Shown: piece after piece, positions 28,517 to 64,000 of the stretch | How the letters are laid out: every line of letters starts with the position of its first letter | Position numbering within the stretch: position 1 is the stretch's first letter | Origin: Bugula neritina | Taxonomy: Eukaryota > Bryozoa > Gymnolaemata > Cheilostomatida > Bugulidae | NCBI GenBank assembly: GCA_964035545.1 | Contig: OZ037767.1 | Location: 32,201,628 to 32,265,627 of the forward strand | Direction: 5' to 3' | Length of the DNA: 64,000 bases | The notes under the pieces: model-generated | What the model was told of the DNA's origin: nothing | Seen by the model: the letters and a program-made list of their open reading frames with translations, nothing else | Databases searched by the model: none | Made by a program: the position numbers and the translations under genes

Positions 28517-33847
<5,331 letters not shown>

Positions 33848-34571: not shown

Positions 34572-35681
34572 TTAACTAGCGTCTGTTAAGTGCGCAAGTA
34601 AAAATTTGCGTTTATGTCTACACGTGGTGGAAAGCTCTTTTCGTTTGTTGAGGGAAGATAATTCCGGTTGTTTTAAAATTATATACTTCTCATAGTTGCA
34701 TAAATTACATCTATTGGTTAGGTTTGAGTATGATTTGCAAATCTTTAAAATATTCCATTTTAAGCTGAATTTTGTTTTGTTGTCTTTTAAATTCCAGATG
34801 TGTCTGCTGAGTTGCGTGCTGTTAGCTTTATCTGCATGTAGGAAAGAGGCTTTGTGGTTATTGAATCTGGTTTTGAAGGTAGTCGAACAGAGTCCTATGT
34901 ATGAATGGCTGGAATTATTGTCCTGTCTTGTTACAGTTGCTTGGTATATTACGTCTTTGTATAAGCATTTACCATTTAGTGGACAGTGGGAAGGTTGTTT
35001 GCAGTTACATTGTGTGTCATTTAGTTTAGTAGCGGTAGTAGGGGTGTGTGCGGTTTTAAGTTTGTGATGGTTCGAGCCATCAATAATATTTTTCATGTTG
35101 GGCATGCATGAATAGCTAATTTTTATAGTTTTCCTATTGAAAATTTTACTTAGTTGGTTGGATGGTGGAAAGCATTTGTCGATGATTTGAAGAAATTTCT
35201 TCCCTATTTTGGTTTTTACTGTTGAACTAAAAGGTGGGTTGTACCACAATATGTTTCTGTTTCTATTTCTATTATTGTTGTTGGATTTGGGTGTCGGGTT
35301 ATATTTTAATTTATAGTCATATCCACTGTTTGATAGTGCTTCTTGGTACGGTTGTATGGTGTTTTTAAACTCTTCTTCATTGGAGGATAGTGAGCTAAGT
35401 CTTTTATTTATATTTTCTGGTATGTTTTTCAATACTGCAGGTGGGTGGTCGCTTTGTTTGTGAACGTAGAGGATAGTGTTTCCAGGTTTTGTATAGGGTT
35501 TATAGGATTGGTTAGTCAAGTTGAATGTTACATCTAGAAAGTTTACAACTTTCTTATTGGCTTCTATTGTGATTGAGAGATTAAATTTTCTAAAAAAGTT
35601 GCAAATTTGTTTTTTGTTCTGTTCTATGTGTCTAGGTGTTCCTTCGCAAACTATGAGTCCATCATCTCTATACAGGCCTAT
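34572..35681 (-). pseudogene. RT (C-terminal part) plus GIY-YIG endonuclease, truncated
   Basis: Penelope-like elements copy their RNA by target-primed reverse transcription and use the GIY-YIG domain to nick DNA. Here the frame begins near the RT palm motif (GLYRDDGLIV), passes a Lys/Asn-rich linker (about residues 120-170), a Cys-rich segment (CNCKQPSHCPLNGKC) and the GIY-YIG core (SYIGLCSTTFKTRFNNH), then ends in a basic region with a second Cys pair (CNLCNYEK). There is no in-frame stop, but also no start or fingers domain. It is classed as a pseudogene because of the truncation. Confidence 0.82.
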
Positions 35682-35716
35682 ATATATATATAATTATGTG
35701 TGTGTATGTATATAAA

Positions 35717-36655
35717 GGGATAAAGGACTTTTACGTAGACACTTTGACTCTAAATGTGAAGAGACACTACGCTACCTTCACTGTGACTAACGCAACTAGT
35801 AAGTGTTGAATACAACCGTTTATGTGTTGATTACAACTGTTGATATACATGTGTGTTGAATACAACTGTTGACATGTAGATGTGTTGAATACGACTGTTG
35901 ATATGTTGAGTACATCTGTTGATATGTAGATATGTTGAGTACATCTGTTGATATGTAGATGTGTTGAGTACATCTGTTGATATGTAGATGTGTTGAGTAC
36001 ATCTGTTGATATGTAGAGTACAATATTATATCTTTATAAATCTGTTCCCTAACTTTGTATGTTAGAGTCAGAAATATAATTCATAACTTTATAGTCTTTA
36101 GTTAAGCTGAATATTTTTCAATCATAAGGAATACTTGTCAGAAATATATCAAATGACACAAGAGTAACTTTTTATCTTTACTCTATATCTATATTGCAAA
36201 GGCAGGTCTCCAGTGACTAGCTAGCTGATAGTATAGTTGAATAAATCAGTTATATTGTAACTATTGCATCTATCTGTCTATAGAGATATTCTGCTATATC
36301 TATAGATACTCTGCTATATCTATAGATACTCTGCTATATCTATAGATACTCTGCTATATCTATAGATACTCTGCTATATCTATAGATACTCTGCTATATC
36401 TATAGATAGTCTGCTATATCTATAGATACTCTGCTATGTCTATAGATAGTCTGCTATATCTAGAGATAGTCTGCTATACCTATAGATACTCTGCTATATC
36501 TATAGATACTCTGCTATATCTATAGATACTCTGCTATATCTATAGATACTCTGCTATATCTATAGATACTCTGCTATATCTATAGATACTCTGCTATATC
36601 TATAGATACTCTGCTATATCTATAGATACTCTGCTATATCTATAGACAGTCTGCT
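35717..36655 (+). pseudogene. Fragment of a third Ig-receptor copy
   Basis: Positions 35717-35798 match the 3' end of the exon at 57055-57291 (IKDFYVDTLTLNVKRHYAT and onward), including its GTAAGT donor. The following minisatellite (35800-36020), a unique segment (about 36020-36285) and the 20-bp array TATAGATACTCTGCTATATC (36286-36655) match 57300-58262 of the plus-strand receptor gene, but the exon corresponding to 57415-57570 is absent. The exon starts mid-sequence where the Penelope-like element ends. The Tyr variant at DFYVD links it to the minus-strand receptor (61548-61784) rather than to the plus-strand one. Confidence 0.8.
36286..36655. repeat. 20-bp minisatellite shared with 57960-58262
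   Basis: Unit TATAGATACTCTGCTATATC, about 18 copies, homologous in unit and flanks to the array in the intron before the transmembrane exon of the plus-strand Ig receptor. Confidence 0.95.
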
Positions 36656-36681
36656 CAACTTGAGTATTTCTATTATTTAAG

Positions 36682-43076: not shown

Positions 43077-46000
43077 TTATTTGGACTTGGTGGACTTTGA
43101 CTGAGCGTGCTTGATCTCAGAGAGAATAACTCCAAGTAGTATAACAGCGTGGCAGATGTGGAGGGAGGAGCTGCTGATGTTAGTTGAAGGATACGTGTTC
43201 CAGCACATCTCTATAGTTCCTAGCACCAGCAGTCTGTAATATACACCAGCAGTCTGTAATACACACCAGCAGTCTGTAATACACACCAGCAGTCTGTAAT
43301 ATACACCAGCAGTCTGTAATACACACCAGCAGTCTGTAATACACACCAGCAGTCTGTAATATACACCAGCAGTCTGTAATACACACCAGCAGTCTGTAAT
43401 ACACACTAGCAGTCTGTAATATACACCAGCAGTCTGTAATATACACCAGCAGTCTGTAATACACACCAGCAGTCTGTAATACACACCAGCAGTCTGTAAT
43501 ACACACCAGCAGTCTGTAATACACACCAGCAGTCTGTAATATACACCAGCAGTCTGTAATACACACCAGCAGTCTGTAATACACACCAGCAGTCTGTAAT
43601 ATACACCAGCAGTCTGTAATACACACTAGCAGTCTGTAATATACACCAGCAGTCTGTAATACACACCAGCAGTCTGTAATACACCAGCAGTCTGTAATAC
43701 ACACTAACCTGTCACACTAACCTGTATACAAGTGTCACACTAACCTGTACACAAGTGTCACACTAACCTGTATATAACTGGCATGTCGACAAGCCATACA
43801 AGGTAGTGTAGAGTGTGGAAGTACCAGACGTAGAACTGATAATGGAGAGAGCGGCTGAAACACATTCCTATGAAGTTTGAGACAAACAGAGTCCTCACCA
43901 TATCTGTAGAGAAAGTACTGAGGAGTTGTTCTACCTTGTATGATATTATAATACTGAATATCTATAGAGAAAGTACTGAGGAGTTGTTCTACCTTGTATG
44001 ATATTATAATACTGAATATCTGTAGAGAAAGTACTGAGGAGTTGTTCTACCTTGTATGATATAATGCTGAATATCTGTAGAGAAAGTATTGAGGAGTTGT
44101 TCTACCTTGTATGATATAATACTGAATATCTGTAGAGAAAGTACTGAGAAGTTGTTCTACCTTGTATGATATTATAATACTGAATATCTGTAGAGAAAGT
44201 ACTGAGGAGTTGTTCTACCTTGTATGATATAATGCTGAATATCTGTAGAGAAAGTATTGAGGAGTTGTTCTACCTTGTATGATATTATAATACTGAATAT
44301 CTGTAGAAAAATATTGAGGAGTTGTTCTACCTTGTATGATATTATAATACTGAATATCTGTAGAGAAAGTATTGAGGAGTTGTTCTACCTTGTATGATAT
44401 TATAATACTGAATATCTGTAGAGAAAGTATTGAGGAGTTGTTCTACCTTGTATGATATTATAATACTGAATATCTGTAGAGAAAGTTTTGAGGAGTTGTT
44501 CTACCTTGTATGATATTATAATACTGAATATCTGTAGAGAAAGTATTGAGGAGTTGTTCTACCTTGTATGATATTATAATACTGAATATCTGTAGAGAAA
44601 GTATTGAGAAGTTGTTCTACCTTGTATGATATTATAATACTGAATATCTGTAGAGAAAGTATTGAGGAGTTGTTCTACCTTGTATGATATTATAATACTG
44701 AATATCTGTAGAGAAAGTACTGAGAAGTTGTTCTACCTTGTATGATATAATACTGAATATCTGTAGAGAAAGTATTGAGGAGTTGTTCTACCTTGTATGA
44801 TATAATACTGAATATCTGTAGAGAAAGTACTGAGAAGTTGTTCTACCTTGTATGATATAATACTGAATATCTGTAGAGAAAGTACTGAGGAGTTGCTCTA
44901 CCTTGTATGATATAATACTGAATATCTGTAGAGAAAGTACTGAGGAGTTGCTCTACCTTGTATGATATTATAATACTGAATATCTGTAGAGAAAGTATTG
45001 AGGAGTTGCTTTACCTTGTTTGATATAATACTGAATATCTGTAGAGAAAGTATTGAGGAGTTGCTCTACCTTGTATGATATAATAATACTGAATATCTGT
45101 AGAGAAAGTTTTATCACAACACAAACCGTTGGCAGATATTGGCTCCTCCTTCTTTTTGGATGTTTTGAACAAGTGAGAGAAGTTGAAGAGTTTGCTCCAT
45201 GATATGAAGTAGAACAAGACGAGGGTGGATATGTGTCCAATCAGAAGGCAGATGTGGAAGTAGCGCGAGCTGAATATATCCTCCTAGACAAAAGATTACA
45301 TGAACCAATACGATAAAGGACAAAACTCCAGGCTATACGTACAGAGAGAGACCTAAGGCTATACGTACAGAGAGAGACCTAAGGCTATACGTACAGAGAG
45401 AGACCTAAGGCTATACATACAGAGAGAAACCTAAGGCTATACGTACAGAGAGAGACCTAAGGCTATACGTACAGAGAGAGACCTAAGGCTATACGTACAG
45501 AGAGAGACCTAAGGCTATACATACAGAGAGAAACCTAAGGCTATACGTACAGAGAGAGACCTAAGGCTATACGTACAGAGAGAGACCTAAGGCTATACGT
45601 ACAGAGAGAGACCTAAGGCTATACATACAGAGAGAAACCTAAGGCTATACATACAGAGAGAGACCTAAGGCTATACGTACAGAGAGAGACCTAAGGCTAT
45701 ACATACAGAGAGAGACCTAAGGCTATACGTACAGAGAGAGACCTGAGGCTATACGTACAGAGAGAAACCTCCAATTTACGGTCCATTTGAAGAGGAATTG
45801 TCTGCCCAGATTAAATGCTCCAAGCATATAGGAGACGGGATTCTCTAGGAGAAAAGGAGCGCCCAATGAGATCTGTAAACACAAATACCTGTATGATAGA
45901 AATATATTACCTGTATGACAGAAATATATTACCTGTATGACAGAAATATATTACCTGTATGATAGAAATATATTACCTGTATGACAGAGATATATTACCT

Positions 46001-52589: not shown

Positions 52590-55500
52590 ATGCAGTTAAC
52601 TAGCAGGTGGCTGTTGTTAGTGTGTGTCACAATATTACGTCACGAAATCTCTACTGCTGAGGATGTAAATTACTTAATCCAGTCATCAACTATCATTAAA
52701 GACTCCGGTAGCGCACTCTACGTACTCTGTATTACTCTACATACTCTGTATTACTCTACATACTCTACATACTCTGTATTACTCTACATACTCTGTATTA
52801 CTCTACATACTCTACGTACTCTGTATTACTCTACATACTCTACATACTCTGTATTACTCTACATACTCTGTATTACTCTACATACTCTGTATTACTCTAC
52901 GTACTCTGTATTACTCTACGTACTCTGTATTACTCTGTATTACTCTACATACTCTGTATTACTCTACATACTCTGTATTACTCTACATACTCTGTATTAC
53001 TCTACATACTCTGTATTATACTCTGTATTACTCTACGTACTCTGTATTGCTCTACATACTCTGTATTACTCTACATACTCTGTATTATACTCTGTATTAC
53101 TCTACATACTCTGTATTGCTCTACATACTCTGTATTACTCTACATACTCTGTATTACTCTACATACTCTGTATTACTCTACATACTCTGTATTACTCTAC
53201 ATACTCTGTATTACTCTACATACTCTGTATTACTCTACATACTCTGTATTACTCTACATACTCTGTATAACTCTACATACTCTGTATTACTCTACATACT
53301 CTGTATTACTCTACATACTCTGTATTACTCTACATACTCAGTATTACTCTACGTACTCTGTATTACTCTACGTACTCTGTATTACTCTACATACTCTGTA
53401 TTACTCTACGTACTCTGTATTATACTCTGTATTACTCTACGTACTCTGTATTACTCTACATACTCTGTATTACTCTACATACTCTGTATTACTCTACGTA
53501 CTCTGTATTACTCTACATACTCTGTATTACTCTACGTACTCTGTATTACTCTACGTACTCTGTATTATACTCTGTATTACTCTACATACTCTGTATTACT
53601 CTACTTACTCTGTATTACTCTATATACTCTGTATTACTCTACATACTCTACATACTCTGTATTGCTCTACATACTCTGTATTACTCTACATACTCTGTAT
53701 TACTCTACATACTCTGTATTACTCTACATACTCTGTATTACTCTACGTACTCTGTATTACTCTACATACTCTGTATTACTCTACATACTCTGTATTACTC
53801 TACATACTCTGTATTACTCTATATACTCTGTATTACTCTACATACTCTGTATTACTCTACATACTCTGTATTACTCTACGTACTCTGTATAACTCTACAT
53901 ACTCTGTATTATACTCTGTATTATACTCTGTATTACTCTACATACTCTGTATTACTCTACATACTCTGTATTACTCTACATACTCTGTATTACTCTATAT
54001 ACTCTGTATTACTCTACATACTCTGTATTACTCTACATACTCTGTATTACTCTACTTGCAGCCGGGAACGATGTTGGTCCACAGTTTGCATTGTCTCACA
54101 CAGTGTTGAAGACAGATGAGGAGTTGTCTTATATATGCAGGGAAAACTCGGTAAACTCAACTAGTGGTGCTAATGGTTTGGTTCTGATTAACTCAACCGG
54201 GCACATTGTTCCAGTTGGTGAGTTATCTACCCCTACTCATTTTCGCATGTGTGTCTGTACACTAACAATACCGACTCTGTCAGCTCACAGTATATCAAGT
54301 TAAACCACTCATTATACATATCATCAGCAGTAACTCTGGAATTCAATGTCAACAAATGCCATTGAGAAAGAGTGATGCAATAAATAATGTGTTGCCATGG
54401 TGATAATGTGGACAGTATATTCTTCTGTCATCTGTTGCAATGACAAATTTATTCATCAATTTGAATTGTTGCATTAGACTATGCAGATAAACATGTTGGT
54501 TTAAGTATGCAGGTATTATGGCATTATCAAAGAAGTGCACTATCTGAATATTATGACTCACGTTTACTTTTTGTACTATTTTTGTAGATAAATTGGAGTA
54601 TGTAGAAGGTGAGTAGAATATGTGGGAGGAGAGTGGAGTATGTGGGAGGAGAGTAGAGTATGTGGGAGGAGAGTAGAGTATGTGGGAGGAGATTAGGGTA
54701 TGTGGGAGGAGAGTAGAGTATGTGGGAGGAGATTAGGGTATGTGGGAGGAGAGTAGAGTATGTGGGAGGAGAGTAGAGTATGTGGGAGGAGATTAGGGTA
54801 TGTGGGAGGAGAGTAGAGTATGTGGGAGGAGAGTAGAGTATGTGGGAGGGGAGTAGAGTATGTGGGAGGAGAGTAGAGTATGTGGGAGGAGATAAGAGCT
54901 AGCTAATGATATTATTGTAGGCAATGTAAGCAGAGAGGCGTGTGATGATCCACTGACAGGATGTACTGTAACTAAGGGCACCATCAAATGGAGGCGGGAA
55001 ATGGGAGGGAACTACGCCTGCTCTGCCCACCCAGATGAATTCTACACCATACACTGGATAGACCCAGGTAAGATTGTCTGTCATTTTCTCTCTTAATTGT
55101 AAGGTATTTGGGTGTACAGGTTATGCTGGTTAAAAGTTTACATGGACACAATATAGATGAAATATGTTCTTCATTGAGTACTCGATAAGTAGATCACTCA
55201 AACTGTGTCACTCAAACTGTGTCACGCAGAGAGTGTCACTCAAAGGGTGTCACTCAAAGGGTGTCACTCAAAGGGTGTCACTCAAAGGGTGTCACTCAAA
55301 GGGTGTCACTCAAAGGGTGTCACTCTGTAACCTTCTCTGAGTTTCCTGTCAACTCTTTGCTCATGTCATGTGATTTACAGTTGCCTTAGTTCCACAAAGT
55401 ACAGACTTTAGCCGAGACGTTTATGGAAGCAACCTTAGATTCTACTGTTCAGTGGATATGACTCCAACTGACATCAGCTACTCTAAGATTATGAGTGTCG

Positions 55501-55858
55501 TCTGGTAATGTCATGCTTACCTGTATAGTACAGTGTGTATGTATGTGACAGTGTGTGTGTGTGACAGTGTATGTGACAGTGTGTATGTTACAGTGTATGT
55601 ATGTGACAGTGTGTGTGTGTGTGTGACAGTGTGTATGTGACAGTGTGTGTGACAGTGTGTATGTGACAGTGTGTGTGACTGTGTGTGTATGTGACAGTGT
55701 ATATGTGTGACAGTGTGTATGTTACAATATATATGTGTGACAGTGTGTATGTGACAGTGTGTGTGTGTGTGTGTGCGTGACAGCGACTGTGTGCGTGACA
55801 GCGATTGTGTGCGTGACAGCGACTGTGTGCGTGACAGCGACTGTGTGCGTGACAGCGG

Positions 55859-55942
<84 letters not shown>

Positions 55943-58656
55943 GCGTGCGCGTGCGCGTGCGCGTGCGCGTGCGCGTGCGCGTGCGCGTGCGCGTGCGCGT
56001 GCGCGTGCGCGTGCGCGTGCGCGTGCGCGTGTGTGTGTGACAATATATATACATGTGACAATATATATATGTGTGACAGTATATGTGACAGGCATTGGAA
56101 TAGTGCCAAGACTCAAGGAAACTGGGCAATTCTACAGAATAATATCAACGGAGTAAAATATCAGACTGACTCTTTTGGTGCCAACTCAACTCTGGTCATA
56201 TCTAACTACAACCCAATACAACACGGTGGTGAATACAGATGTACTGTTAATATACTCAGATATGCTGATCCACTCGAAAGTACATCTTTCAGCATTCAAA
56301 GTTAGTAACAGTACTCACTATTTATTATATATTACTACTATATGCAATATATTACTACTATATGCTATATATTACTACTATATGCTATATATTACTACTA
56401 TATACTATATATTACTACTATATACTATATATTACTACTATACGCTATATATTACTACTATGCGCTATATATTACTACTATATGCTATATATTACTACTA
56501 TATGCTATATATTACTACTATATACTATATATTACTACTATATACTATATATTACTACTATACGCTATATATTACTACTATGTGCTATATATTACTACTA
56601 TGTGCTATATATTACTACTATATGCTATATATTACTACTATACACTTTATATTACTACTATACGCTATATATTACTACTATGTGCTATATATTACTATTA
56701 TACACTATATATTACTACTATATACTATATACTACTACTATGTGCTATATATTACTACTATACGCTATATATTACTACTATACACTATATATTACTACTA
56801 TACACTATATATTACTACTATATGCAATATATTACTACTATATGCTATATATTACTACTATATGCTATATGTTGCTACTATACACTATATATTACTACTA
56901 TACATTATATGTTACTACTATGTGCTGTATATTACTACTATATACTACTACTATATGCTATATGTTACTACTATATGCTATATATTACTACTTTATACTA
57001 TATATTACTACTATATGCTATATATTACTACTATATATTATGTATGTCTTGCAGGCCAGCCAAAGGCACAGCTAACTAACGACAAAAGGGATTCCTTTGA
57101 TTTTGGTGTCACTGAAGAGTTTAAAATTACTTGTTACGCCGAATCTTACCCATTTCCTAGTGACATCGAGTTTAGAATTTATACCGAGTCAATAACTCGT
57201 GACCATCCCGGGATAAAGGACTTCAGCGTAGACACTTTGTCTCTAAATGTGAAGAGACATTACGCTACCTTCACTGTGACTAATGCAACTAGTAAGTGTT
57301 GAATACAACCGTTGACATGTTGAGTACATCTGTTGATATGTTGAGTACATCTGTTACTATGTTGAGTACATCTGTTGACATGTAGATATGTTGAATACAA
57401 CTGTTGATATGCAGGTGTGTTTCCTGTCAACAACTCAATGATAGAATGTATAGTTACCAGACCTGATGGAGAGGAGAACCTGGCACAAACCAATGTCTCT
57501 CTGTTTGAAGTTACTCCTCCTGTGACAGCCACGGATAGCCCTGTGAACCCAAATGTTCGGCCCAGACAGGGTAGGCTATGTTACCACCCCTAAACTATAC
57601 TAGTCTGTACTATCACACTGCTATACTATATACTGTACTGTTATACTCACGTACTCAGACGAATGGGACAACGGATCTTCTTGTTTATCACAGAAACGTA
57701 CAATATATCTCTATAAATCTGTTCCCTAACTTTGTATGTTAGAGTCAGAAATATAATTCATAACTTTATAGTCTTTAGTTAAGCTGACTATTTTTCAATC
57801 ATAAGGAATACTTGTCAGAAAGATATCAAATGACACAAGAGTAACTTTTTATCTTTACTTTATATCCATATTGCAAAGGCAGGTCTCCAGTGACTAGCTA
57901 GCTGATAGTATAGTTGAATAAATCAGTTATATTGTAACTATTACATCTATCTGTCTATAGAGATAGTCTGCTATATCTATAGATACTCTGCTATATCTAT
58001 AGATACTCTGCTATATCTATAGATACTCTGCTATATCTATAGATACTCTGCTATATCTATAGATACTCTGCTATATCTATAGATACTCTGCTATATCTAT
58101 AGATACTCTGCTATATCTATAGATACTCTGCTATATCTATAGATACTCTGCTATATCTATAGATACTCTGCTATATCTATAGATACTCTGCTATATCTAG
58201 AGATACTCTGCTATATCTAGAGATACTCTGCTATATCTAGAGATACTCTGCTATATCTAGAGATATTCTATTGATAGTTATACTATGACACAGTATCTAT
58301 TATACTATGGCATAGTATCTAATATATTATGACACAGTATCTATTATATTATGACACAGTATCTATATTATTGTTACTGTATGACAGGAGTTGTCCAGCC
58401 TTGGGTAATTGTCCTTTCTATCCTCATCCCGGTGGTAGTCATAGCAGTGCTAGTTGGCGTTCTCGTGTGGAAGTTCAGAAGTGACGGTGGCCATAACAAG
58501 GGGGGTGAGTAACAGTAACTGTATCTGTAGCTAACACTGGTCACTGAATCCATTTACAGCATATTCCACAGCCTGTTTCTCCAATGTTACACAAGAATCT
58601 CTCCTCGTTTGTTTACAGCGTACACATTAGGGGACACAGATGACCCCGATGCTTAA
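52590..58656 (+). CDS. Ig-superfamily type I membrane receptor, short tail
   Basis: Ten phase-consistent exons: 52590-52707, 54062-54217, 54588-54608, 54921-55067, 55381-55504, 56092-56300, 57055-57291, 57415-57570, 58388-58504, 58619-58656 (TAA), 440 aa. Residues 1 to about 24 form a signal peptide (SRWLLLVCVTIL). Three Ig-like domains follow, judged by Cys pairs: SYIC and GNYACS (about 40-147), LRFYC, VVW and GEYRC (148-258), and FKITC and IECIV (259-380). One transmembrane helix (WVIVLSILIPVVVIAVLVG) follows, then a tail of about 20 residues ending TLGDTDDPDA, without Tyr signalling motifs other than one Tyr. The role is probably adhesion or recognition, with signalling through partners if any. 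All internal exons end in phase 1 except exon 5, the usual Ig-gene pattern. Almost identical ectodomain exons lie inverted at 61032-63101. Confidence 0.85.
52725..54055. repeat. 19-bp minisatellite, about 70 copies
   Basis: Unit TCTGTATTACTCTACATAC, the longest array in the window, fills the first intron of the plus-strand Ig receptor from 18 nt after the donor to the acceptor. Confidence 0.95.
54600..54895. repeat. 20-bp minisatellite seeded on a micro-exon donor
   Basis: Unit AGAGTAGAGTATGTGGGAGG. The first unit overlaps the end of the 21-nt exon 54588-54608 (GGAGTATGTAGAAG|GTGAGT). Confidence 0.9.
55525..56090. repeat. TG, GTGCGC and GTGTATGTGACA microsatellites
   Basis: GTGACAGTGTGTATGTGACA-type units (55525-55760), CGACTGTGTGCGTGACAG units (55775-55860), a pure TG run (55860-55937), then alternating GTGCGC (55937-56030). 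The last two are strictly alternating purine-pyrimidine DNA, able to form Z-DNA. Confidence 0.95.
56310..57045. repeat. 20-bp minisatellite, about 36 copies
   Basis: Unit TATATTACTACTATATGCTA, in the intron before exon 57055. The inverted receptor copy has the same array at 61795-62470 with a different order of variants and a different copy number. Confidence 0.95.
57300..57412. repeat. GTTGATATGTTGAGTACATC-type tandem repeat
   Basis: About four units in the intron before exon 57415; the related arrays at 35800-36020 and 61190-61545 are longer. The acceptor GATATGCAG|GTGTG is a variant of the repeated GATATGTAG|ATGTG. Confidence 0.85.
57960..58262. repeat. 20-bp minisatellite shared with 36286-36655
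   Basis: About 15 copies of TATAGATACTCTGCTATATC in the intron before the transmembrane exon of the plus-strand receptor. Confidence 0.95.
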
Positions 58657-60365
58657 GAGCAAGTCTCTCAGCTGGTATGCAGCACATTTCTCTCATGATT
58701 GAGCTTGTGCTGTGAAATGCTTTCTGCTCGGAGCTCTCCTGCGTATATATAGTTTCTAAATCCATGAAATTATTAAAAATAAGTATATTTTCTGTTACAT
58801 TTTGTGAAATTTCTTGCTATTTCCAAGCTTTATGCGTTCTATGTCTCTACTACATGCCATCTCAGTAAAATCTCATGCCTGGGGAGATTACTCCGATATA
58901 TTTTATATTGTATTCTCTACTCTGTATCTTGCCATTCCGATTACATATATTTTATTAGTCTTATTTTATATATTCATTTTATAGTAGTCTTACTTGTGTC
59001 TGCCAATTCTTATTTTCAAACAAAATAACAATATTTTCATATAACACCAGGTTCTTTCTATGAAATTGCATCGATTTGTTCTACTGTATATACCCTACTG
59101 TGTACATCCTACTGTATACATGCTACTATGTACACCTACTGCATACACCCCACTGTATATACACTACTGTATACATCCTACTGTATATATACATTACTGT
59201 TAATACTAAAATAACATAGCATAGATACTACATGTTTTGTGAGATAAGATTTATTGATGAGAAAAATAATAATGATGATGATATATACAGGATTAAAAAT
59301 ATAAATGTGAAGAAAATATATTTAAAGCTACTAATTGCAGTGCTCTTTTTGAGATTACCATAAACATTACACAAATACATTAGTTATGATCATGTACAGA
59401 GCCATGTTTCTCTGTACATTATTAAATTGTCATGGGAAAAAAGCTATAAGTATATTACAACCGAAATATCTATAAGTAAAAGATTATGAAACATGTAAAT
59501 ATTAGATTTGTTGGCAAAGATTACTGATAGAAGAAGTAAAAGAATAACATCTAGTGTACAAGAAAAGCAACCCTAGTCAGCAAGGAGGAGGTAGTAAGCT
59601 GAGAGCAGGTAGTAAGCTGAGAGCAATGCAAAGATATTAGCAGACAGCATGCTATCCCTGCCTACATTGTAGGTACATGACATATACGTGCAAAAATAAT
59701 AGTGTTGTACAAAAAGCTCCTGCAGTAGCAAATGAAAATGGGATGTAAATGCAGTCACATGTCTGTGTTACAACACAACGGGAGGATACCAGTGAATATC
59801 CCGGTCTCAACAGTGCCAGTGTTGGTGGGGGAGGATTTAATCTGGGTCATCAGTGTTGCCTACAGAGTACTTGCCTGTAACAGAGAGAGCAGAAGGGTGG
59901 GTGTGTGCATGCCCCAACATCTACTTGCTCTAGCCTGCAGCTATCCTAAGCACGTAGAAGCTTTCCCAATGCTGCTATGTTAACATGTAAAGAGGTGGAA
60001 TATATATGCAGATGTTACTTATAATTCAGAGAACAGATAACTCTAAATATACAATAAATAGTTGACATGTAACAACCAATAATATTATTTTCTCTAACTT
60101 GCAGCTAACAAATAGTGGGGATGCCTTCACCACACCTCCTACCGCAGGGAGGTTAGTAGATTATAGGGCTATTTTTGACATGCAGTAGCTGTGAAAGTTA
60201 GAATAGGAAAAGTAGTAGTAGAGAAGAAACAGAAACACTTCACCAACATACAGTATCACCAACATTATCCCAGTAGTCTATGCTATATAGTATATACATA
60301 TACAATACATATACAATACACATAAAACTGTCCAACTGCTAGGTTAGCTCAAGTTCTGAAATGTA
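58657..60365. other. Convergent intergenic spacer between the two Ig receptors
   Basis: About 1.7 kb between the two stop codons. There are short TACTGTATACATCCTACTGT-type repeats near 59090-59200. No supportable ORF on either strand. It forms the non-palindromic loop of the inverted duplication. Confidence 0.6.
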
Positions 60366-63101
60366 TCAGTATCTGTTGAGGGAGGGTGGGGATGCGTACC
60401 CGGTGTGAGCACGGTTAGACCGAGGTGTGCTATATTGAACACTGGGTGGGCGGTAGGGGGTCTCCCCTTCATCAGCAATAGAGAAGTGGTCCTTGCTGGG
60501 GTGCTCAGTCAGTGGCTGACTATGGGAAGGGGGCTCAGCCCTACGCCCCTTACTATACTGACTGCCACCGTAGATAGGATTGTGGTCTACCCTGCCCGGA
60601 GTAGCGTAGGGGCTGGAGTTGTAGGACTTATTGTGCTGCCCCCGGATATACTGGCCAGGGGCGTAAACCCCCTGACTAGCCATAGACTGGCTGTCGGAGT
60701 AGCGGGAACTGCGCATGCTCCGCACAGAGCGATGGTCAGCGTACTGGCCATCAGTTATGTTGTCGTCTGAGGGGGCGTGGTAGAAGTTACCTCCATCGTC
60801 TTCTCCTCCAAACTTCTTGCACTTCCAGACGAGGATCACAGCTATGACTAGCAAGATGATGATGGGTATGATGACAGCAATGGCTATGACCCACGGCCTA
60901 GTTGGTTCTACAACATACATAATAGTAGTATTATAGACTATAGACTAGTGTGTAGTATAACAGTACAGTATCATAACATAGCAGTGTAATAGTACAGACT
61001 AGTATAGTTTAGGGGTGGTAACATAACCTACCCTGTCTGGGCCGAACATTTGGGTTCACAGGGCTATCCGTGGCTGTCACAGGGGGAGTAACTTCAAACA
61101 GAGAGACTTTGGTTTGTGCCAGGTTCTCCTCTCCATCAGGTCTGGTAACTATACATTCTATCACTGAGTTGTTGACAGGAAACACACCTGCATATCAACA
61201 GTTGTATTCAACATATCTACATGTCAACAGATGTACTCAACATAGCAACAGTTGTATTCAACATATCTACATGTCAACAGATGTACTCAACATAGCAACA
61301 GTTGTACTCAACATATCTACATGTCAACAGATGTACTCAACATATCAACAGTTGTATTCAACATATCTACATGTCAACAGTTGTATTCAACACATCAACA
61401 GTTGTATTCAACATATCTACATGTCAACAGATGTACTCAACATAGCAACAGATGTACTCAACACATCTACATATCAACAGTTTTACTCAACACACATGTA
61501 TATCTACAGTTGTATTCAACACATCAACAGTTGTATTCAACACTTACTAGTTGCGTTAGTCACAGTGAAGGTAGCGTAGTGTCTCTTCACATTTAGAGAC
61601 AAAGTGTCTACGTAGAAGTCCTTTATCCCGGGATGGTCACGAGTTAGAGTCTCGGTATAAATTCTAAACTCGATGTCACTAGGAAATGGGTAAGATTCGG
61701 CGTAACAAGTTATTTTAAACTCTTCAGTGATACCAAAGTCAAAGGAATCCCTTTTGTCGTTAGTTAGCTGTGCCTTTGGCTGGCCTGCAAGACATACATA
61801 ATATATAGTAGTAATATATAGCATATAGTAGTAATATATAGCATATAGTAGTAATATATAGCATATAGTAGTAACATATAGCGTATAGTAGTAATATATA
61901 GCATATAGTAGTAATATATAGCATATAGTAGTAATATATAGCATATAGTAGTAATATATTGCATATGGTAGTAATATATAGCATACAGTAGTAATATATA
62001 GCATATAGTAGTAACATATAGCGTATAGTAGTAATATATAGCGTATAGTAGTAATATATAGCATATAGTAGTAATATATAGCATATAGTAGTAATATATA
62101 GCGTATAGTAGTAATATATAGCATAATTATAGTAGTAATATATAGTGTGTAGTAGTAATATATAGTATATAGTAGTAATATATAGTGTAGAGTAGTAACA
62201 TATAGCGTATAGTAGTAATATATAGTGTGTAGTAGCAATATATAGCATATAGTAGTAATATATAGCATATAGTAGTAATATATAGCATATAGTAGTAATA
62301 TATAGTGTATAGTAGTAATATATAGCATATAGTAGTAATATATAGTATATAGTAGTAATATATAGTATATAGTAGTAATATATAGTATATAGTAGTAATA
62401 TATAGCATATAGTAGTAATATATAGCATATAGTAGTAATATATTGCATATAGTAGTAATATATAATAAATAGTGAGTACTGTTACTAACTTTGAATGCTG
62501 AAAGATGTACTTTCGAGTGGATCAGCATATCTGAGTATATTAACAGTACATCTGTATTCACCACCGTGTTGTATTGAGTTGTAGTTAGATATGACCAGAG
62601 TTGAGTTGGCACCAAAGGAGTCAGTCTGATATTTTATTCCGTTGATATTATTCTGTAGAATTGCCCAGTTTCCTTGAGTCTTGGCACTATTCCAATGCCT
62701 GTCGCATATACTGTCACACATATATATACTGTCACACCTATATACTGTCACACATATATATATATACTGTCACATATATACTGTCACATATATATATATA
62801 TATATATATACTGTAACATACACTCTGTCACACACACACACACTGTCACATACACACTGTCACACACACACACACTGTCACATACATACACTGTAACATA
62901 CACACTGTCACATACACTGTCACACACACACTGTCACATACATACACACTGTACTATACAGGTAAACATGACATTACCAGACGACACTCATAATCTTAGA
63001 GTAGCTGATGTCAGTTGGAGTCATATCCACTGAACAGTAGAATCTAAGGTTGCTTCCATAAACGTCTCGGCTAAAGTCTGTACTTTGTGGAACTAAGGCA
63101 A
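60366..63101 (-). CDS. Ig-superfamily membrane receptor with long tail, partial
   Basis: Minus-strand exons 63101-62978, 62698-62490, 61784-61548, 61187-61032 and 60907-60366 (TAA), all in phase. The first four encode two Ig-like domains nearly identical to residues 148-389 of the plus-strand receptor; the exons for signal peptide and first domain must lie beyond 64000 or are lost. The last exon is different: a transmembrane helix (WVIAIAVIIPIIILLVIAVI) only distantly like its counterpart, then a tail of about 145 residues with a basic-acidic start and five YxxP motifs (YHAP, YATP, YRPP, YSTP, YASP). YxxP is the SH2-binding site of Crk-type adaptors, so this copy could signal while the short-tailed one could not. 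That is inference. Confidence 0.82.
61190..61545. repeat. Tandem repeat of TCAACAGTTGTATTCAACAT type
   Basis: Units of 27-46 bp in the intron between exons 61784-61548 and 61187-61032; the inverted, expanded counterpart of 57300-57412. Confidence 0.9.
61795..62470. repeat. 20-bp minisatellite, inverted counterpart of 56310-57045
   Basis: Unit TAGTAGTAATATATAGCATA, about 34 copies, between exons 62698-62490 and 61784-61548. Confidence 0.95.
62705..62960. repeat. TA and CACTGTCACA microsatellites
   Basis: Counterpart of the 55525-56090 array, but with TATATATA runs and lacking the long TG and GTGCGC tracts. Confidence 0.9.
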
Positions 63102-63149
63102 CTGTAAATCACATGACATGAGCAAAGAGTTGACAGGAAACTCAGAGAA

Positions 63150-63232
63150 GGTTACAGAGTGACACCCTTTGAGTGACACCCTTTGAGTGACACCCTTTGA
63201 GTGACACCCTTTGAGTGACACTCTCTGCGTGA
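63150..63232. repeat. 14-bp minisatellite, counterpart of 55210-55325
   Basis: GAGTGACACCCTTT units, about five copies; the left arm has about seven. It marks the outer end of the shared homology. Confidence 0.9.
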
Positions 63233-64000
63233 CAGAGTATATTATACACTAGTATAGACGTATATTATACACTAGTATAGACGTATATTACACACTAGTA
63301 TAGACGTATATTATACACTAGTATAGACGTATATTATACACTAGTATAGACGTATATTATACACTAGTATAGACGTATATTATACACTAGTATAGACGTA
63401 TATTATACACTAGTATAGACGTATATTATACACTAGTATAGACGTATATTATACACTAGTATAGACGTATATTATACACTAGTATAGACGTATATTATAC
63501 ACTAGTATAGACGTATATTATACACTAGTATAGACGTATATTATACACTAGTATAGACGTATATTATACACTAGTATAGACGTATATTATACACTAGTAT
63601 AGACGTATATTATACACTAGTATAGACGTATATTATACACTAGTATAGACGTATATTATACACTAGTATAGACGTATATTATACACCAGTATAGACGTAT
63701 ATTATACACCAGTATAGACGTATATTATACACCAGTATAGACGTATATTATACACCAGTATAGACGTATATTATACACCAGTATAGACGTATATTATACA
63801 CTAGTATAGGCGTATATTATACACTAGTATAGGCGTATATTATACACTAGTATAGGCGTATATTATACACTAGTATAGACGTATATTATACACTAGTATA
63901 GACGTATATTATACACTAGTATAGACGTATATTATACACTAGTATAGATGTATATTATACACTAGTATAGATGTATATTATACACTAGTATAGATGTATA
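63233..64000. repeat. 23-bp minisatellite running off the window
   Basis: Unit TATAGACGTATATTATACAC plus TAG, at least 33 copies, very homogeneous, with no counterpart in the left arm. It presumably fills an intron of the minus-strand receptor. Confidence 0.95.

Follow-up and report, generated by a model that had tools for sequence, protein, structure and literature searches.

A convergent pair of immunoglobulin-like receptor genes in the bryozoan Bugula neritina with a common membrane-proximal block and a predicted choice of tails

A stretch of 64,000 nucleotides (nt) from chromosome 3 of Bugula neritina (the window; C3:32201628-32265627 of a 215.85-Mb genome) was analyzed in one genome and one haplotype, and positions are given as window positions throughout. 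The locus, some 140 kb from the chromosome end, contains two convergent receptor genes, gene A (+) and gene B (-), each with three immunoglobulin (Ig)-like domains (D1-D3), a transmembrane (TM) segment and a tail. The two genes are apparently older paralogues that share a younger D2-D3 block, for which gene conversion provides the best fit, and a putative counterpart of the short-tail exon of gene A is located in gene B, downstream of a long tail rich in tyrosine (Tyr). We read gene B as switchable between the Tyr-rich and the short tail, and gene A as a short-tail specialist. The overall explanation, which combines older paralogues, an optional last intron, a later conversion of D2-D3 and tail-based tuning, is given a probability of about 0.62. 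Its structural part is highly probable, and its functional part, in which short-tailed forms dilute or brake a Tyr-tailed form, is tentative and falls short of even odds.

Gene A spans 52590-58656 (+) and consists of ten exons with AG/GT sites, comprising 441 codons including the stop, with no internal stop in the spliced coding sequence; its last intron measures 114 nt. Gene B starts beyond the window on the minus strand and ends at 60366 (long form) or 59837 (short form). A run of 5000 N (64001-69000) begins right after the window, within gene B, and a genome search for exon(s) 3-4 of B with D1 of A matched A itself and B exon 2 alone, 64001-69000 reading N. The genes belong to the immunoglobulin superfamily (IgSF), as a related protein (P0001) scores above the Pfam cut-offs for Ig_3 and Ig_2; gene A reaches 28.2 for Ig_3 against a cut-off of 30, at residues 155-234 of the spliced query. 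The exons are as follows.

52590..52707, + strand: gene A exon 1, signal peptide by eye; ATG, GT donor, spliced frame open
54062..54217, + strand: gene A exon 2, first half of D1; AG/GT sites; 25/48 residues identical to B exon 2, 18/48 to P0002
54588..54608, + strand: gene A exon 3, 21-nt microexon DKLEYVE, placed by AG/GT sites and phase only
54921..55067, + strand: gene A exon 4, second half of D1; exons 3-4 match P0001 at 24/56 residues
55381..55504, + strand: gene A exon 5, D2; same as B exon 5
56092..56300, + strand: gene A exon 6, D2; differs from B at 3/209 nt; Pfam Ig_3 match slightly under cut-off
57055..57291, + strand: gene A exon 7, D3; differs from B at 10/237 nt
57415..57570, + strand: gene A exon 8, end of D3 and stalk; differs from B at 3/156 nt
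58388..58504, + strand: gene A exon 9, TM, 117 nt
58619..58656, + strand: gene A exon 10, short tail AYTLGDTDDPDA, 38 nt including the stop
chr3 32,278,010-32,277,884 (window numbers 76383-76257), - strand: gene B exon 1, about 12 kb past the window end
chr3 32,277,410-32,277,267 (window numbers 75783-75640), - strand: gene B exon 2, the counterpart of gene A exon 2 (25/48 residues)
62978..63101, - strand: gene B exon 5, D2
62490..62698, - strand: gene B exon 6, D2
61548..61784, - strand: gene B exon 7, D3
61032..61187, - strand: gene B exon 8, end of D3 and stalk
60366..60907, - strand: gene B exon 9, long form, TM and Tyr-rich tail ending in SLNRY and a stop; in a genome search it matches only itself and the TM exon of A
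60791..60907, - strand: gene B exon 9a, putative short form, 117 nt, with internal donor GGAG/GTAACT (predicted splicing)
59875..60790, - strand: gene B, proposed optional last intron of 916 nt, GTAACT...TTACAG, containing the long-tail coding sequence and its stop (predicted splicing)
59837..59874, - strand: gene B hidden exon 10, short tail GKYSVGNTDDPD, 38 nt including the stop (predicted splicing)

The block common to both genes is delimited as follows.

55248..57647, + strand: common tract, A side
60954..63234, - strand: common tract, B side

Within this tract, exons 5-8 of the two genes are 97.8% alike, with 16 mismatches over 726 nt (0, 3, 10 and 3 by exon) and an identical exon 5, in agreement with the roughly 15 differences counted by eye in the first-pass annotation. 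The affected codons comprise eight amino-acid and six silent changes, and 109/111 residues of D2 and 111/117 of D3 coincide (together 220/228). The pieces of intron that are free of minisatellite agree at 62/62, 131/132 and 73/77 nt, whereas BLAST aligns the minisatellite-rich parts at 89-94% over as many as 1415 columns, which is lower than the 98% or so that had been claimed for exons and introns alike. One edge of the tract lies at about 55248/63234, inside the intron-4 minisatellite. The other is a sharp stop in intron 8, at 57647/60954, within a few nucleotides of the drop first placed at 57650/60950. No BLAST match at E 0.001 was found on the right between 57648-58700 and 58700-60953, nor on the left between the flank of A and 63235-64000. 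The left flank of A and 69001-76400 gave 20 BLAST matches, and the 12 listed all pair the intron-1 minisatellite of A with a repeat at 69002-69199.

The exons that flank the tract are only about half identical. The TM segments of A and B agree at 11/25 residues, which bears out the loose pattern described at first pass, and D1 exon 2 at 25/48 (52%). The description of the ectodomains as near-identical was therefore too broad: D2-D3 are shared, and the first half of D1, which in B lies beyond the window, is not. Because the introns are near-identical inside the tract and show no non-repeat match outside it, protein selection alone is argued against. The block was apparently copied between the genes, whether by gene conversion or by a one-time replacement. 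Gene conversion of part of the ectodomain, an early suggestion for this pair, fits exons at 97.8% and non-repeat introns at 93-100% between such divergent flanks. We infer both the conversion and any direction given to it, and a single genome cannot give the direction. Introns and spacers of the window are crowded with long minisatellites of many units (e.g. 43900-45112, 52715-54055, 56312-57045 and 63237-64000), and the repeat at 69002-69199, which the intron-1 array of A resembles, borders the N run within gene B.

The tails of the two genes had been regarded as unrelated. All phase-1 acceptors followed by a stop within 40 codons were scanned over 133 kb (9,563 sites) and scored against the tail of A. 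Exon 10 of A itself scored 66, and the second-ranking site, 59874 (-), scored 51, with the next independent site at 28. A score of 51 was reached by none of 300 two-base-block shuffles of the 3' region of B (best 31), and no residue shuffle out of 5000 aligned as well with AYTLGDTDDPDA of A as the peptide GKYSVGNTDDPD encoded at this site. The hidden exon is in phase, lies downstream of the long-tail stop and is preceded by the pyrimidine-rich stretch CTTCTGCTCTCTCTGTTACAG. An internal donor of B at 60790 (GGAG/GTAACT), in the correct phase, would yield an exon 9 of 117 nt and an exon 10 of 38 nt, both equal to those of A. Since exon lengths and phase are equal in A and B, the long tail would be contained in an optional intron of 916 nt. 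With an A-like short-tail exon at 59874-59837, the tails no longer appear unrelated, and a recent duplication onto a different tail, also proposed at first pass, loses its ground, as the tail exon of A is present in B as a putative alternative exon. A decoy produced by simple truncation was rejected on the same counterpart exon.

The long tail of B extends 141 residues beyond the donor position, close to the 145 or so first estimated, and is encoded in a region with a GC content of 0.576, compared with 0.375 just downstream. It contains 13 Tyr, five YxxP (a number reached by 5/1000 shuffles) and one NPIY. NPxY is a motif of phosphotyrosine-binding (PTB) domain recognition and of endocytosis. 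The tail of the related protein P0002 has 11 Tyr, two YxxP and one NPIY, and that of P0006 has two YxxM, no YxxP, and RPIY at the position corresponding to NPIY.

Three protein searches, one of which scored only the 7,996 candidates that share most words, returned six related proteins. P0002 and P0003 are uncharacterized proteins of the bryozoan Watersipora subatra, both listed with a contig of 64,042,602 bases, and are 42-49% identical to A and B in D2 and D3. In the TM segment, P0002 agrees with B at 18/25 residues and with A at 11/25. A and B look older than the shared tract because the TM segment groups B with Watersipora and D2-D3 group A with B, although these are short segments. Like A and B, P0002 and P0003 combine a D2-D3-TM architecture with one long Tyr-rich and one short tail, diverging after the GG of the juxtamembrane region. 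In contrast to A and B, they are alike to an even degree wherever a comparison is possible (302/353 positions; second half of D1 45/52, D2 96/110, D3 104/118, TM 25/25), and no block flanked by divergent sequence is seen there; P0002 has a full D1 and the model of P0003 lacks its start. A run of 36 residues, from EPTKPWV through the TM segment to KYRKDDG, is identical in P0004 and P0006, which then diverge at the donor position into a tail of 17 residues and a Tyr-rich tail of about 148 residues, respectively. P0004 looks like a spliced copy, in which the exon 8-9 junction is read without an intron, and P0006 looks genomic, beginning in an apparent intron. P0001 (356 residues) stops directly after D3 without a TM segment, which would correspond to a secreted form or a cut contig; its AlphaFold model, built from 4 sequences, has a mean predicted local distance difference test score of 47.3 and is too poor for use. 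A sequence search of solved structures gave weak matches only, the best being PD-L1 at E 0.0011.

Three other origins of the pair were considered. In a recent whole-gene duplication, D1 and the TM/tail region would have diverged rapidly under diversifying selection, with D2-D3 constrained. The genes are indeed a few kb apart and have exon order and phase in common in the exons seen, but protein selection cannot produce non-repeat introns that are 93-100% identical in the tract next to a right flank without match and a left flank matched by minisatellite only, and over its 25 residues the TM segment of B is closer to Watersipora than to A; this origin is decidedly improbable. A one-time transfer of exons 5-8 into an older paralogue, by unequal exchange or duplicative insertion and with no recurrent conversion, would leave a single sharp-edged tract of the same appearance. 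Local copying of gene pieces does occur here: fragment C (35717..36674, +) consists of the last part of exon 7 with intron 7, followed directly by an intron 8 like that of A, exon 8 being missing. The exon-7 portion agrees with B at 80/82 nt and with A at 76/82, and the intron-8 portion with A at 254/260. Because its divergence resembles that of the tract, we take it to be a relic of similar age, left by a locus that copies its own pieces. Homologous D1 and TM exons are already present in both genes, however, so that replacing a block is more parsimonious than inserting one, and a one-time transfer is rather unlikely; single and several events look the same in one genome. No further copy of the intron-8 piece of fragment C was found in a genome search that skips simple repeats, and an origin of intron 8 from a dispersed repeat was rejected on that search, as only A and fragment C match. 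Adjoining fragment C, a 373-codon open frame at 34575-35693 (-) is retroelement-like by eye and has no Pfam match at E 1.

An assembly artefact, either two haplotypes joined or a palindromic misjoin, is suggested by the 5000-N run directly past the window and by the one haplotypic duplication that curation is described as having fixed (PMC11480708). The same data note gives 27.37 Gb in 2.82 million HiFi reads, a quality value of 53.7 and an N90 of 10,879,868 bp for tzBugNeri2.1 (PMC11480708). The mean read, about 9.7 kb as a computed average, is longer than the tract, and D1, TM, tail and repeat arrays differ between the arms, so that these are not alleles of one gene. The worry is largely answered, and the artefact is very improbable. 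Gene conversion between older paralogues is retained as the preferred origin of the block.

As to function, the first-pass annotation likened the pair to activating and inhibitory receptors. Paired receptors in the vertebrate sense (Siglec-11/16, CEACAM1/CEACAM3) would match the inverted neighbours, the 2-3 kb common ectodomain block, and the combination of one long Tyr tail with one short tail. Patterns of the immunoreceptor tyrosine-based inhibitory and switch motifs (ITIM and ITSM) were, however, found in none of the six tails searched, and Yxx[LI] matches neither tail of A or B. The TM segments of A and B contain no charged residue (D, E, K, R) before the final Lys that could serve an adaptor, the shared domains are membrane-proximal, and the comparable part of the distal domain is not shared (D1 exon 2, 25/48). 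This comparison is weakly supported at best, and such a function is improbable.

The explanation that we prefer starts from a three-domain bryozoan IgSF receptor gene with an optional last intron. Splicing of the intron would give a short acidic tail, and its retention would let translation proceed from the TM segment through about 140 residues of Tyr-rich tail. B would have retained both options, and A would have lost the long-tail sequence, as its 114-nt last intron suggests, and would make the short form only. Later ectopic gene conversion between the inverted genes would have covered the block from intron 4 to intron 8 (D2-D3), with D1 and TM remaining divergent. Long-tail B could then act as a signalling receptor through Tyr docking sites, including NPIY, and short-tail B and A, with matching membrane-proximal domains and no docking sites, could tune B in cis by mixed assembly. 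The short-tailed forms would dilute or brake the Tyr-tailed form, in analogy to CEACAM1-S and CEACAM1-L; as an alternative role, A may present another distal domain on a common scaffold. Because D2-D3 are held alike while D1 differs, we think that D2-D3 may serve common assembly or spacing, and D1 specificity. A role of the locus in allorecognition is possible. Its most specific version is a long shot: a bryozoan self/non-self or fusion receptor, with B toggling between signalling and silent tails via its last intron, and the silent-only paralogue A, differing in the distal domain and with D2-D3 kept compatible by conversion, being a cis partner or dominant brake.

Several observations weigh against this explanation. 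The short form of B is a prediction from sequence. An open frame of 140 codons arose in 61/5000 composition-matched shuffles, so that chance is not impossible for the long tail. Polyadenylation hexamers are absent (0/9) between the long-tail stop and exon 10, and the long form must therefore use a distal signal; intronic polyadenylation as the tail switch was rejected on this count, and intron retention is preferred. YxxP is not kept (5 in B, 2 in P0002, 0 in P0006), and its clustering in the tail of B was dropped as a telling sign. In the long tail, B and P0002 resemble each other weakly (18/1000 shuffles as high). The short tail of P0003 is unlike that of A (1699/2000 shuffles as high), and that of P0004 is weakly like those of A (92/5000 as high, or 12/2000 under other settings) and B (149/5000). 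P0004 and P0006 would derive from one gene, though their contigs come from different sources. Intron 7, which holds a minisatellite, is a poorer match, with 114/123 aligned nt and 237 gap columns. The TM comparison behind the older-paralogue argument covers 25 residues only, and the 48 residues of D1 exon 2 fail to separate B-P0002 (24/48) from A-B (25/48).

A genome search with D2-D3 addressed the further ectodomain copies for which a check had been suggested at first pass, and gave at least 14 matches (15 candidates scored): eight in A and B, fragment C, and five weak matches on C8 (at 10.997 Mb) and C9 (9.670-9.692 Mb). The count is a lower bound, since divergent members would escape. At C9:9668701-9692074, three tandem copies show the order D1-D2-D3 by eye, indicating a larger family of D1-D3 modules. 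In the first copy the beginning of D3 carries an in-frame TGA at a codon that is Trp in both others. Sushi repeats (PF00084, E 2.3e-13) lie downstream of the second copy, which was the copy scanned. Another relative of the D1-D3 module lies at C8:10996848-11000596, with an open frame about 3 kb downstream that is CUB-like by eye and has no Pfam match.

Just past the 5' end of B, at chr3 about 32,281,535-32,286,523 (window numbers 79908-84896; + strand), RING-like frames are followed by an SH2 domain. With queries spliced by eye from two frames each, the former match PF13639 at E 1.7e-4, below the cut-off, and the latter PF00017 at E 7e-10. A RING-SH2 protein, if this is one gene, located beside a Tyr-tailed receptor is a candidate partner. 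Elsewhere in the window, 30575-31153 (-) is part of a galactosyltransferase-family gene (PF01762, E 1.6e-9), and an Rfam scan of the window was empty.

The A/B pair constitutes a concrete, testable bryozoan receptor locus. Fusion between bryozoans is described as possibly limited to close relatives, and larvae of B. neritina are reported to recognize kin (PMC11686985). Among the titles and abstract openings listed in searches of the literature on bryozoan allorecognition or immunoglobulin receptors, none names such a gene; the nearest is a single sentence on a weak similarity of B. neritina sequences to Alr1 (PMC7576161). The locus points to a combination like that of mammalian Siglec and CEACAM genes in a protostome phylum, in which copying keeps parts of the ectodomain alike while the tails part, the parting here probably having been prepared by an older splice choice.

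Among known systems, the colonial Hydractinia is described as having single-pass IgSF receptors, Alr1 and Alr2, whose genomic neighbourhood also contains related genes and probable pseudogenes (PMC11067881). A and B are likened to Alr1 and Alr2 by layout, as IgSF receptors of a colonial invertebrate with relatives nearby. SIGLEC11 and SIGLEC16 of primates are reported as inverted IgSF genes about 9 kb apart, in which an ectodomain region of about 3 kb is kept alike by conversion and the signalling parts differ (PMC5701461). The A/B pair corresponds to them as an inverted IgSF pair with an ectodomain block alike and different signalling ends. The primate genes, however, are head-to-head, their block includes the ligand-binding V-set domain, and an ITIM receptor faces an adaptor-coupled partner. 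By contrast, A and B are convergent, differ in the distal exon compared, have no ITIM and no charged residue inside the TM segment, and a putative counterpart of the short-tail exon is also found in the long-tail gene. Alternative splicing gives CEACAM1 a long or a short cytoplasmic tail, the long one being encoded in a cassette exon, and CEACAM1-S dilutes or brakes CEACAM1-L. Paralogues of CEACAM1 are described as kept alike by conversion (PMC2832619), and duplicated CEACAM genes of the horse as having lost inhibitory motifs via alternative splicing (PMC5856374). The likeness to CEACAM1 resides in the long and short tails, the exon, donor, acceptor, phase and length in A/B all fitting the predicted switch, and is one of gene layout; A/B differ in having no ITIM and in carrying the long tail in a proposed optional intron instead of a cassette exon. 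The opposition of an ITIM to an immunoreceptor tyrosine-based activation motif or charged TM segment fails for A/B, and a shared distal domain is doubtful. By analogy, A/B would work most like the CEACAM1 paralogues, and resemble SIGLEC11/SIGLEC16 in their genomic logic.

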